From NCBI GenBank assembly GCA_027046245.1, contig JALTZJ010000026.1, positions 1 to 64,000 of the forward strand: 64,000 nt of DNA, given 5' to 3'. Numbering within the stretch: the first letter of the stretch is position 1; every line of letters starts with the position of its first letter. This document shows, one piece after another, positions 20,772 to 24,294 of this stretch. The position numbers and the translations under genes were made by a program. The DNA comes from Acidilobaceae archaeon. Its GTDB lineage: Archaea > Thermoproteota > Thermoprotei_A > Sulfolobales > Acidilobaceae. The notes under the pieces were generated by a model. The model ran no database searches. It was not told the DNA's origin and saw only the letters and a program-made list of their open reading frames with translations.

Positions 20772-21251
20772 TTATCTAACGAGTTTTCCTTCGCGCCTTA
20801 GAACCTCAATGATCAGGTTCACGGCGTCATTCATTGAAACACTCTTAACAATTAAGTCGCGGTTACCGACAATTTCACGCCATTCTCTCAGAGAGGATGG
20901 GTCGTTACACGATTCCGTTAGCCCATAGCTCACTTTACATATGGCAACGAAATCGCTTGGGTAGAAGCGCGTTGGCAAGCCGCTAATCGCGACATAGCCG
21001 CTTCTATACTCGTCTAGGTAGCCTACAGCTATTACGTTGCCTTCTAGCTTGCTGGCTAGTCTTAGCGCGTGAGCAGCCAGGTGTATAGGTCCCTTTGCCG
21101 CAGTCTCCCTCCTGACCTGAACGCCTTCCAGGCTATTGCTCTCAACTGCGAGTCTATCTATCTCTATGACGCGGCCAGCTATCATTATGTGCCACGTTAG
21201 CTCCTTCAGCGCCTTGGTGGCCGCCTCGGGGAGCCTGTTAGGCAAATACAT
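20772..21251 (-). CDS. Unrecognised soluble protein
   Basis: Start placed at ATG 21251 (159 residues) since GGGGTGG lies a few bases upstream; an open frame continues to 21290. The protein has a helical N-terminus (LPNRLPEAATKALKEL), a central part with SGYVAISGLPTRFYPSDFVA and a C-terminal helix VSMNDAVNLIIEVLRREGKL. No known motif is evident. The gene stands alone, with an AT-rich upstream region shared divergently with the gene at 21639. Confidence 0.5.
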   Translation of the reverse strand: MYLPNRLPEAATKALKELTWHIMIAGRVIEIDRLAVESNSLEGVQVRRETAAKGPIHLAAHALRLASKLEGNVIAVGYLDEYRSGYVAISGLPTRFYPSDFVAICKVSYGLTESCNDPSSLREWREIVGNRDLIVKSVSMNDAVNLIIEVLRREGKLVR

Positions 21252-21638
21252 CGCCACCCCACTCCGGGGGCTACCTTTTGTAGTTGACACAGCTACGCAC
21301 TCCTAGGGCTAAACTGTTCACTCGGGATACAAATAAGGCTTTACTTGCACTCAAGCCTATATTTACAGTTATCTGGAACGACATATACGAAATGTAGTTC
21401 ATATCTAAGGCCTGCCCCGCTTATTCCTCATTTACCTAGCATAGCTACCTTTCATATATTTCATAGATGTACTTTCTCGGCTCCTCCCTACCATAACTCT
21501 TAGCATCACTCCTACACTTATAGCAACTAGTATATTTAAATATAAGCAACTAGTAATGCAGTGTTGTTTGAGCAAAGTTTAATACTAGAATGCTTAAAGT
21601 AGTGGAATGCTAGTGCAATGGGCGGGGTTTCATGAACA
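21252..21638. other. AT-rich divergent intergenic region
   Basis: Long non-coding stretch, markedly more AT-rich than the neighbours, between divergent unrecognised genes. It carries several TATA-like elements and the repeat-flanked palindrome at 21522-21555. No reading frame or RNA gene is supported. Confidence 0.5.
21522..21555 (+). promoter_or_regulatory. Palindromic TATA element flanked by 11-bp direct repeats
   Basis: AGCAACTAGTA occurs at 21522-21532 and again at 21545-21555, in the same orientation. Between and overlapping the first copy lies the perfect 14-bp palindrome TATATTTAAATATA (21531-21544). The layout looks like a promoter core bracketed by two activator or repressor sites, upstream of the gene at 21639. 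Confidence 0.5.
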
Positions 21639-22460
21639 GTGGGGGAGGGACCAGTTAGCCTCCCTGAGGCGAGATTTAAAAGATACAAGAACGCAGTAAG
21701 GCTGAAGGCTGATACCCTGAGAGAGTTAGTTGAGCATCTCGCTGATACGGCAGTGACTTATAGATCCGCGGCGAGAGGCGCCACAGTAACCCTTCTACAG
21801 GCGATGATAGAGTATAGCGGTGGGTTCAGGGAGGCGCGTATCTGGGTAGCGCCTGACGGCGTCTATGGAGCGAGTAATGTAAGGAGGGGCGAACTGCCGG
21901 AGAGCGACTTCTACACTGCACTCGTAGAGATAATGGAGACTACAGTGGATCTAATGAAATTCGACCACGAGGTTCTAGGCTATAAAGGAATAGAGGTATA
22001 CTATGCTCCTCACGGCGACGAAAAAAGATTAGTGGCGAAGCTCCTCGGCGTACAGGAGACAGAAGAGCATGAAGAAGAAGTAGCGGCGGAGCCCGGGGTA
22101 GCAGAGGAGGAGCCAGAGGAAACCGTGGAGAGCAAGGAAGAACCAGCCTTTCTATTATCCGAGGTGCAGGGAAAGGAGGGTCTACTCGAGAAATGCCTTA
22201 GGACATTATCAGTGTACTGTGCCCATGGCTGCGACGTAGAAGACCCGTTAAGGGCGCTATCAGAGGATACCCCTGTGATACTCTACGGCGACGGTCCTAG
22301 CTACGTGTGCGTGGTGCCAGAGATGAGCAGCGAGTGTGAATACCGGGTTATATACTTGGGGTTCAAGCAGAGCTGGGAAAAATGCCTCGGAAAAAGGGAC
22401 GTTGAGAAACTAGTGGATAACCTAGTCAGGAAGGAAGGCTTTGAAGCCCTCCGAATATAA
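21639..22460 (+). CDS. Unrecognised two-domain acidic protein
   Basis: A 273-residue protein from GTG 21639. Residues about 1-135 form one alpha/beta domain (VRLKADTLRELVEHLADTA; FREARIWVAPDGVYGASNVR). Residues about 137-168 are a Glu-rich linker (EEHEEEVAAEPGVAEEEPEE). Residues about 170-273 form a second domain with six cysteines, including CLRTLSVYCAHGC and SSECEYRV. No family is recognised. The promoter region has an operator-like site. It converges on the Roadblock operon. Confidence 0.55.
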   Translation: MGEGPVSLPEARFKRYKNAVRLKADTLRELVEHLADTAVTYRSAARGATVTLLQAMIEYSGGFREARIWVAPDGVYGASNVRRGELPESDFYTALVEIMETTVDLMKFDHEVLGYKGIEVYYAPHGDEKRLVAKLLGVQETEEHEEEVAAEPGVAEEEPEETVESKEEPAFLLSEVQGKEGLLEKCLRTLSVYCAHGCDVEDPLRALSEDTPVILYGDGPSYVCVVPEMSSECEYRVIYLGFKQSWEKCLGKRDVEKLVDNLVRKEGFEALRI

Positions 22461-22576: not shown

Positions 22577-23362
22577 TTATCCGCTCTCGGCTTTCTTCTC
22601 CTCAGTTGATGGAGCCTTCGCTATAGGCTCCCTCGGAGCGTTGCGATAGATGAACATTCCTATAACCGAGCCGCCTAGGACTCCTGCAGCGATGGCTACT
22701 ATCGGGTTCATAGTTGCTATGTAGCCTAGCGAGCCAAGGATGACGCCGCCTATGAAGCCCTCTAGTGCAGCTATTCTGGCTGCTTCTCCTGTTCTAATGT
22801 ACTCCACCTTCCTGCCCGTTCCAGTTATGAGCCTGCCGCAGCTGGGGCACTTCTTGAAGCGCACTACTCTGCCGCAGAAGGGGCAGACGTCGCTTCTGAA
22901 GGGTATAGTGCGGCCACATCTAGGGCACTTGTATATCTCTAGGGTTAAGTCGTGCCTGCAGTAGGGGCAGTAGACTCTATAGCCCTCTAGGTAGCTAGAT
23001 GCTATCTGCGTTGCCTCCTCTGTTATTTTGCGTTGCCCCTCTATTAGTAGGAGTAGCCCTTTGCTGCGAGACACGCTTATGACTCTCCCGCTCTGCACGA
23101 AGACTACTACGCTGTTTATCTCTTCGTTTATAAGATCGGCTATGTAGATCTCGGCTGCAGTGGCTAGGTCAACTGCTAGTGCTGCGGCGGTCTCAGCCCT
23201 CTCCTGATCCATGCCAGTATAAGCTAGGGGGAATCCCTCGCTAACTATAACAGAGTACTCGATACCATCGAGTTTGTTTAAAAAATCGGTTACATCCTGG
23301 GCTAGCTCGCTTATATCCTTCTGCTCCTGGAGCCTCTCTCGGCCCGCGGGGGTTTCACTCAA
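22577..23362 (-). CDS. Roadblock/LC7 domain protein with zinc ribbons and C-terminal membrane helices
   Basis: A 261-residue multidomain protein. Residues about 15-125 resemble a Roadblock/LC7 domain (LDGIEYSVIVSEGFPLAYTG; NSVVVFVQSGRVISVSRSKG). Then follow four CxxC pairs: CPYC, CPRC, CPFC and CPSC, giving two zinc-ribbon-like modules at about 130-180. Two hydrophobic helices (about 200-240; GFIGGVILGSLGYIATM and VAIAAGVLGGSVIGMFIY) end in a charged tail. The layout suggests a membrane-attached scaffold. It is the last gene of a three-gene operon with another Roadblock protein. Confidence 0.65.
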   Translation of the reverse strand: MSETPAGRERLQEQKDISELAQDVTDFLNKLDGIEYSVIVSEGFPLAYTGMDQERAETAAALAVDLATAAEIYIADLINEEINSVVVFVQSGRVISVSRSKGLLLLIEGQRKITEEATQIASSYLEGYRVYCPYCRHDLTLEIYKCPRCGRTIPFRSDVCPFCGRVVRFKKCPSCGRLITGTGRKVEYIRTGEAARIAALEGFIGGVILGSLGYIATMNPIVAIAAGVLGGSVIGMFIYRNAPREPIAKAPSTEEKKAESG

Positions 23363-23378
23363 AGGCTCCAGCCTCTTG

Positions 23379-23909
23379 TTACCTGACTATAACTTCTATC
23401 ACTAGCGGGTCTTCAGGGTTCTTCTGCGGGTGTATCTTGACCCTCACCTGTGCGTTGGGCCTGACCTTCCTGATAGCCTTCCTCACAATTGCGGCTGCTA
23501 CGAAGCTTTCGGGGCTCAGCGTGAAGGCTATGCCCTTCTTGGCTAGTAGCATTGACACCGGCTTGAACACGCTGTCATGTATCTTTATTACGTACTTGTC
23601 TCCCTGGTCTGCTCCGTCCTCAGGCGTCTCAACTTCTACGTTATTGCTGATACCTAGCATCTTGAAGGCTTTCGGTATGTCCTCCTTGAGATCCTTGATC
23701 TCGTGGACCTCGAAGCCTATCTCCTCTAGCATCTCCTCTAGGAACTCGCCCACGTCCTTTATGAGTAGCTGGGTCATAGCGGCGCTGCCGCTACCCAGGG
23801 TTCTGTTTAGGGCGATTTGGTATCCAGCTATTATCGCATTTATGAGACCCGAGGGCAAGGCCACCTTCTCCTCCAAGGTAAACTTTCCCTCCTTATAACC
23901 GTCACTCAT
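23379..23909 (-). CDS. Unrecognised protein between two Roadblock genes
   Basis: A 176-residue soluble alpha/beta protein, no family recognised. The N-terminal half is helical (SGLINAIIAGYQIALNRTLG; DVGEFLEEMLEEIGFEVHEI). The C-terminal half has KYVIKIHDSVFKPVSMLLAK and strands VRVKIHPQKNPEDPLVIEVI. Gaps of 16 bases to the gene downstream and 22 bases to the gene upstream place it firmly in the Roadblock operon, so it may bind one of those proteins. Confidence 0.55.
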   Translation of the reverse strand: MSDGYKEGKFTLEEKVALPSGLINAIIAGYQIALNRTLGSGSAAMTQLLIKDVGEFLEEMLEEIGFEVHEIKDLKEDIPKAFKMLGISNNVEVETPEDGADQGDKYVIKIHDSVFKPVSMLLAKKGIAFTLSPESFVAAAIVRKAIRKVRPNAQVRVKIHPQKNPEDPLVIEVIVR

Positions 23910-23931
23910 GGCCCCTCCACCCCCTCAGGGG

Positions 23932-24294
23932 CTAGAGGGTGTTAGCTATCCTGGGGGCTTGCTTCTTCATCTCATACCTTAGCCTGCCTAGAACTGCCTG
24001 GCTTCTGTCGGCTAGCAGAGCTACTATGTTGTCGCCTATATCGTGGATTAGCAGGTAGTGGCCGGGGAATTCTAGTGTCGTTATCTCTGGCCTGCCGATC
24101 TGCAGCTCGCCGCCCAGCTGCTCTATCGAGCCGAGGACGGCGGTAACCATTGCTGCGAACGCGTCTTCGTCTAGGTTTAGCGTGCCGGTGGCAGCCTTGT
24201 CTATGACGAAGCCCTCCTTGCTAACAATGAATACGGCGACAACTCCGGGTATCCGGGTTATGTCGCTTAGTATCCTTTGCACGGGGCTAGACAA
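23932..24294 (-). CDS. Roadblock/LC7 domain protein (MglB-like)
   Basis: A 120-residue single-domain protein. It has the helix SPVQRILSDITRIPGVVAV, the strand FIVSKEGFVIDKA, a central helix AFAAMVTAVLGSIEQLGGEL, then TLEFPGHYLLIHDIGDNIVA, the usual Roadblock order. Such proteins dimerise and act with small Ras-like GTPases (MglA/MglB, Rag/Ragulator). No GTPase gene is nearby. First gene of its operon; upstream at 24332-24343 is a CCGTT/AACGG inverted repeat and a TATA-like AATTTATAC near 24380. Confidence 0.75.
   Translation of the reverse strand: MSSPVQRILSDITRIPGVVAVFIVSKEGFVIDKAATGTLNLDEDAFAAMVTAVLGSIEQLGGELQIGRPEITTLEFPGHYLLIHDIGDNIVALLADRSQAVLGRLRYEMKKQAPRIANTL

Follow-up and report, generated by a model that had tools for sequence, protein, structure and literature searches.

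What can an archaeal operon be doing when two Roadblock genes enclose a gene that belongs to no described family, and none of the three has a GTPase gene beside it? The question is raised by a stretch of 64,000 nucleotides from an Acidilobaceae archaeon (assembly GCA_027046245.1, contig JALTZJ010000026.1; here called the window), which carries such an operon, A-B-C, on its minus strand. A first-pass annotation made from the letters alone had singled out the arrangement and proposed an undescribed signalling or trafficking complex. Its observation is confirmed by the computational analysis reported here and its interpretation is partly supported: the operon is probably to be understood as encoding a membrane-anchored complex of Roadblock and Bet3/V4R proteins that organises or senses membrane without a canonical small GTPase. 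The folds involved are already known.

The three open reading frames lie close together, with gaps of 22 bp between A and B and 16 bp between B and C. Membership of A and C in the Roadblock/LC7 family is evident from Pfam Robl_LC7 (PF03259), which scores A at 40.3 bits (E 2.7e-10) and C at 30.5 bits (E 3e-7) against a curated cut-off of 23 bits, and the Roadblock fold, on which the first-pass annotation had staked its proposal, thus held. The same protein C was said to carry zinc ribbons and membrane segments, and it does: it matches Pfam DZR (35.6 bits against a cut-off of 27.3), contains four CxxC pairs by residue count and ends in two hydrophobic segments (residues 197-215 and 216-234 by hydropathy). 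Copies of C in related operons keep the Roadblock domain, the zinc ribbons and the C-terminal hydrophobic segments, and the cysteines are invariant in the C alignment. For A, the label "MglB-like" proved loose; the Roadblock assignment stands, and its best solved relatives in a search of PDB sequences were 7yh1 and 7f8m, presumably Asgard Roadblock entries, with MglB behind. No Roadblock match besides A and C was present in the source genome, an assembly of 1.38 Mb in 73 contigs that is 76% complete. For B, neither Pfam nor NCBIfam offered a family, and PHROGs and PADLOC returned neither a family nor a link to defence for B or for the neighbouring gene D.

The identity of B was obtained from its predicted structure and, independently, from profile comparison. 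The AlphaFold2 model, built with 26 aligned sequences, reached a mean predicted local distance difference test score (pLDDT) of 86 and a predicted TM-score (pTM) of 0.83. When it was searched against the PDB with Foldseek, the top 15 matches were all Bet3-family subunits of TRAPP, with TRAPPC3/Bet3 best (E 1.7e-5, probability 1.00), followed by the V4R sensors of DmpR, PoxR and MopR and by the Thorarchaeal TRAPPC3 (7yh3). In hhalign, the B profile and a V4R profile from proteins of the same order aligned full-length and co-linearly over 139 columns (91.8%, E 7.5e-7), while decoys consisting of unrelated families, the reversed profile and 30 column-shuffled profiles gave at most 2.2%. With predicted-fold search and profile comparison in agreement, B belongs to the V4R/Bet3 superfamily as a divergent branch, almost always without cysteine. 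The "new partner" of the first-pass annotation is hence new in lacking a described family, not in its superfamily. The Pfam V4R model (PF02830) does not match B, nor does it match at any B position in 20 B-bearing genomes. Among the 27 aligned members, 23 contain no cysteine and the other four a single one each, so that the family almost always lacks both the zinc site of V4R proteins and the palmitoylated cysteine of Bet3; the B of the window has no cysteine at all. An invariant LSPE motif forms part of the family's own signature. Weak Pfam matches to B, FeoA among them, fell under the cut-off and were inconsistent between members, and the B profile yielded chance matches only against PDB sequences. 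One may ask whether the likeness to Bet3 and V4R is itself accidental and the operon no more than a run of small proteins that have nothing to do with one another, as the moderate TM-scores and the lack of a Pfam V4R or TRAPP match would allow; with two independent methods in agreement, clean decoys and near-complete linkage and co-occurrence of the genes, we consider this highly improbable.

Conservation of the arrangement was assessed on 27 B loci, namely the window and 26 loci from a scan of named genomes, all of them metagenome-assembled genomes (MAGs), labelled Acidilobaceae, Aeropyrum sp., Thermodiscus sp., Pyrolobus sp., Pyrodictiaceae, Desulfurococcales or Thermoproteota; copies cut short by the end of a contig, such as those in L046 and L052, are included in the counts. 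In 22 of the 27 loci (L033-L053 and the window), A is the gene immediately upstream of B, and in 21 of those 22, C is the gene immediately downstream, the exception being L051, where C is found nearby on the opposite strand. Two Pyrodictiaceae loci (L054 and L057) show the order B-A. In L057 (10001-10466; also L029), the MAG's B homologue is broken across two reading frames, possibly by a frameshift or an assembly error. Since relatives from three families show A-B-C again with order and strand unchanged, with B identity down to 52-56%, the arrangement is not a chance one; the operon that had been proposed, with its Roadblock protein attached to the membrane, is borne out and is conserved. B is the most conserved gene of the operon (in one relative, B is 81% identical, A 71% and C 43%); orthologues of A directly upstream of B are 51-78% identical.

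Linkage is accompanied by co-occurrence across the class. In a search of 197 genomes, clear B matches were obtained in 28 and Roadblock matches in 34; both were present in 27 genomes, B only in 1, Roadblock only in 7 and neither in 162. Roadblock genes are thus found in 27 of 28 genomes with B and in 7 of 169 without (Fisher P 1e-25, not corrected for phylogeny). Matches at E ~1e-3 in G143, G077, G124, G134 and G104 covered ~70 residues of different proteins of 221-243 amino acids and do not enter the B count. With the C alignment as query, 36 genomes gave strong matches (E < 1e-18), 27 of the 28 with B among them; weaker matches covering zinc-ribbon stretches only were left out of the counts. 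The one B-bearing genome that gave neither a Roadblock match nor a strong C match is G183, a 72%-complete MAG. A lack of co-occurrence, which had been set beforehand as a possible refutation of the proposal, was thus not observed, all three gene types being carried by 27 of 28 B-bearing genomes. The association extends to genomes in which the operon is dissolved: in families f6 and f3 the genes are scattered, and the genome still has all three. G035, a single contig that we take to be Ignicoccus hospitalis, has B at 1,166,964, the Roadblock gene at 824,163 and C at 578,843. According to a published proteome (PMC3149612), I. hospitalis has an abundant Roadblock protein, Iho_0929 (arCOG 2603), that rises threefold when Nanoarchaeum equitans is present; it may be the homologue of A.

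In Myxococcus and in eukaryotes, small GTPases are under the control of Roadblock proteins, and a few Crenarchaeota carry small GTPases of the Group 2 Rup clade (PMC4316618). One explanation of the operon would be a regulator of the MglB or TRAPP type whose GTPase is unlinked or has escaped recognition. No GTPase gene adjoins A-B-C, as the first-pass annotation had noted. Profiles for Roc, Arf and Ras revealed no stand-alone Ras-like GTPase in the 76%-complete source genome or in the tested B-bearing relatives, several of which are 99% complete. What these three profiles did match were longer proteins of ~600, ~740 and roughly 340-440 amino acids, besides a few weak, partial-coverage matches in frames of 233-251 amino acids. 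From their sizes, the ~600- and ~740-residue matches would be translation factors. Ras-like matches of 344-382 amino acids were considered as Ras regulators and set aside, one being NOG1, another having the same layout as NOG1 and a third looking like HflX. A GTPase of the MglA type, as an MglA/MglB system would have, was found neither beside the operon nor elsewhere in the 76%-complete assembly. Because no stand-alone Ras-, Arf- or Roc-type GTPase was found in the genome or its tested B-bearing relatives, the usual role as GTPase regulator is doubtful for these Roadblock proteins, and the explanation built on it is in our judgement unlikely.

Comparison with known systems places the operon near TRAPP without making it one. 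In eukaryotic TRAPP cores (Bet3/TRAPPC3, C5 and C6 with the longins TRAPPC1 and C4), TRAPPC3-fold subunits flank a longin pair, and Roadblock and longin have a common core fold (PMC10933270). The likeness lies in the predicted fold of B, which is that of the Bet3-family subunits, and in the combination of a Bet3 fold with a pair of profilin-like (Roadblock or longin) subunits. The differences are that Pfam identifies the partners as Roadblock rather than longin, that there is a single Bet3-type gene and that one subunit is transmembrane with zinc ribbons. Because there is no longin pair, no Rab was found with the three GTPase profiles in the 76%-complete genome or the tested relatives, and the Bet3 cysteine is missing, the operon is not TRAPP by membership; this lowers the case that it is TRAPP, not the case that it functions as a platform of the TRAPP type. 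The folds of A and B are also those of Roadblock and TRAPPC3 proteins from Asgard archaea (7yh1, 7f8m and Thor-TRAPPC3 7yh3; PMC10933270). Thor-TRAPPC3, however, binds zinc through four cysteines, whereas B is almost always cysteine-free. In the Asgard archaeon MK-D1, small-GTPase genes generally lie outside operons with Roadblock, longin or TRAPPC3 genes (PMC10933270); here, by comparison, Roadblock and V4R/Bet3 genes share one operon, and neither Rab nor Rag was found. With MglB and Ragulator (LAMTOR), the operon shares the Roadblock fold and the idea of a membrane-linked platform; it differs in that no MglA or Rag GTPase was found, in the predicted helices of C as its own membrane attachment, and in having zinc ribbons and a Bet3-type partner.

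The nearest relatives within the same order are the archaeal V4R proteins recognised by PF02830, such as Igni_1332 of Ignicoccus hospitalis, to which B is homologous by the profile comparison; B is set apart from them by its invisibility to PF02830, its near-universal lack of cysteine and its own invariant motif. The link between V4R and Bet3 was first drawn in Ignicoccus by Podar et al. 2008 (PMC2253512), and Heimerl et al. 2017 (PMC5468417) localised Igni_1332 to the inner membrane and to sites of putative fusion. Igni_1332 and B appear to be different proteins, because the place of B in G035 is absent among that genome's V4R matches. These relatives bring in a further explanation, a ligand-sensing regulatory module in which B binds a small hydrophobic molecule and A and C merely scaffold it at the membrane to relay the signal, with no part in membrane organisation or traffic. 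It would suit the presence of the DmpR, PoxR and MopR sensor domains among the Foldseek matches and the conclusion of the Thorarchaeal TRAPPC3 study that ligand binding is the likely role (PMC10933270); the cysteine cluster of sensor V4R domains is missing from B, however, and in the 26 related loci, scanned up to 10 kb on each side with singleton neighbours left unannotated, the only recurrent extra neighbours are cl3, D, E and cl7 (described below), with no recurrent kinase or regulator gene seen. We consider the sensing module a serious possibility and, on balance, an unlikely one. That the operon serves the polarity or assembly of type IV pili or archaella is improbable, no recurrent cluster in the same scan having been recognised as a pilus gene.

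For the membrane-anchored Roadblock-Bet3/V4R complex, analogy with TRAPP suggests the following working scheme. C would be inserted in the membrane via its C-terminal hairpin, with its Roadblock domain in the cytoplasm and paired there with A. Like Bet3, V4R and Asgard TRAPPC3, B is probably a dimer; it would dock on the A-C pair, and the cavity that is typical of its fold may be occupied by a lipid or a hydrophobic ligand. The resulting platform would organise, mark or sense a region of membrane without a canonical Ras-type GTPase, and D would be a likely accessory in loci of the same family. The genes and domains, the predicted fold and superfamily of B, the linkage, the co-occurrence and the failure to detect Ras-like GTPases are computational results; the pairing of A with C, the docking of B, ligand binding, membrane topology and cellular role are inferred. 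The reported localisation of the V4R protein Igni_1332 in Ignicoccus also speaks for the scheme. Certain points weigh against this understanding. TM-scores between the B model and its TRAPP matches are moderate (~0.4-0.6 over the top 15, ~0.5-0.6 to Bet3); the zinc cysteines of V4R and the palmitoylated cysteine of Bet3 are almost always missing from B; V4R proteins are generally viewed as ligand sensors, not tethers (PMC2253512); a search of the D model against known folds gave nothing significant (best E 7.6e-3, probability 0.23); and most of the class is without these genes, so that the function is not universal.

The surroundings of the operon (Table 1) vary between families. Orthologues of D adjoin C in 10 related loci of the same family and are 14-24% identical to D where aligned. 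The gene is fast-evolving with four invariant cysteines, and its AlphaFold2 model has a pLDDT of 76 overall and ~90 in the N-domain. A short gene related to E stands beside D in the same-family loci L033, L035 and L037 (cluster 6) and, weakly, L034. In families f2 and f8, a different gene of ~280 amino acids (cl3) is located near the A-B-C cassette, mostly upstream of A. Its hidden Markov model (HMM) matches cl7 weakly (E 4e-4 to 5e-6), cl7 being a DUF2226/DUF4388-like protein under Pfam cut-offs whose gene neighbours A both in Pyrodictiaceae and in several genomes without B. Homology of D to the DUF2226-like cl3 and cl7 is not claimed, the hhalign values being 3.7% and 0.3%, respectively.

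Table 1. Coordinates of the operon and its neighbours in the window
Gene	Position	Strand	Description	Profile match
A	23932..24294	-	120 aa, TTG start, Roadblock/LC7, first gene of the operon	
B	23379..23909	-	176 aa, ATG start, divergent V4R/Bet3 (TRAPPC3-fold), cysteine-free	
C	22577..23362	-	261 aa, TTG start, Roadblock, double zinc ribbon, two C-terminal hydrophobic segments	
D	21639..22460	+	273 aa, convergent with C, two domains and a disordered linker	
E	20772..21290	-	172 aa, adjoins D, peripheral	cluster 6 HMM, E 2.4e-7

Other associations were recorded in single groups of loci. Roadblock genes adjoin genes of the cl7 type in L131, L132, L133, L144, L145 and L146, some of them without B, and in L038 (5174-7197) a second, divergent cassette without B, composed of A', a C' lacking the hydrophobic hairpin and cl7, adjoins the A-B-C cassette. 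In two f6 genomes, likely Ignicoccus, a gene for a protein of ~280 amino acids directly follows the B homologue (L134:3951-4793 and L135:3403-4239), the L134 copy having weak beta-propeller matches in Pfam. In three genomes of genus g14, the gene adjoining A encodes an SPFH/Band 7 (stomatin-like) membrane protein, identified by Pfam in L141 (3051-3881) and by resemblance in L142 (3144-3968) and L143 (1539-2363).

Lastly, the operon has importance for how the components of membrane platforms came together. The core of eukaryotic TRAPP consists of Bet3-fold and Roadblock/longin-fold proteins, and its prokaryotic origin is usually discussed for Asgard archaea. In the open-licence literature searched, there was no account of the cysteine-poor B family, of the operon, or of a Roadblock-Bet3 pairing outside Asgard without a Ras GTPase. 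Here, an operon from the TACK archaea joins both folds with a membrane anchor, and the genes are kept as a unit and co-occur even when unlinked. The finding suggests a simple membrane platform of the Roadblock/TRAPPC3-fold type outside Asgard, in thermophilic archaea from which no Ras-type GTPase is known. Only tentatively do we go further, to a GTPase-independent, TRAPP-like platform of Roadblock pair, Bet3-fold subunit and built-in anchor in Desulfurococcales, including the endomembrane-bearing Ignicoccus lineage; were that true, profilin-fold dimers and Bet3-fold subunits would have come to be paired before Asgard archaea and small GTPases or independently of them. The operon offers a small, expressible system for asking whether these folds assemble, what role they have without a Ras GTPase and how they relate to membrane remodelling of the Ignicoccus type.
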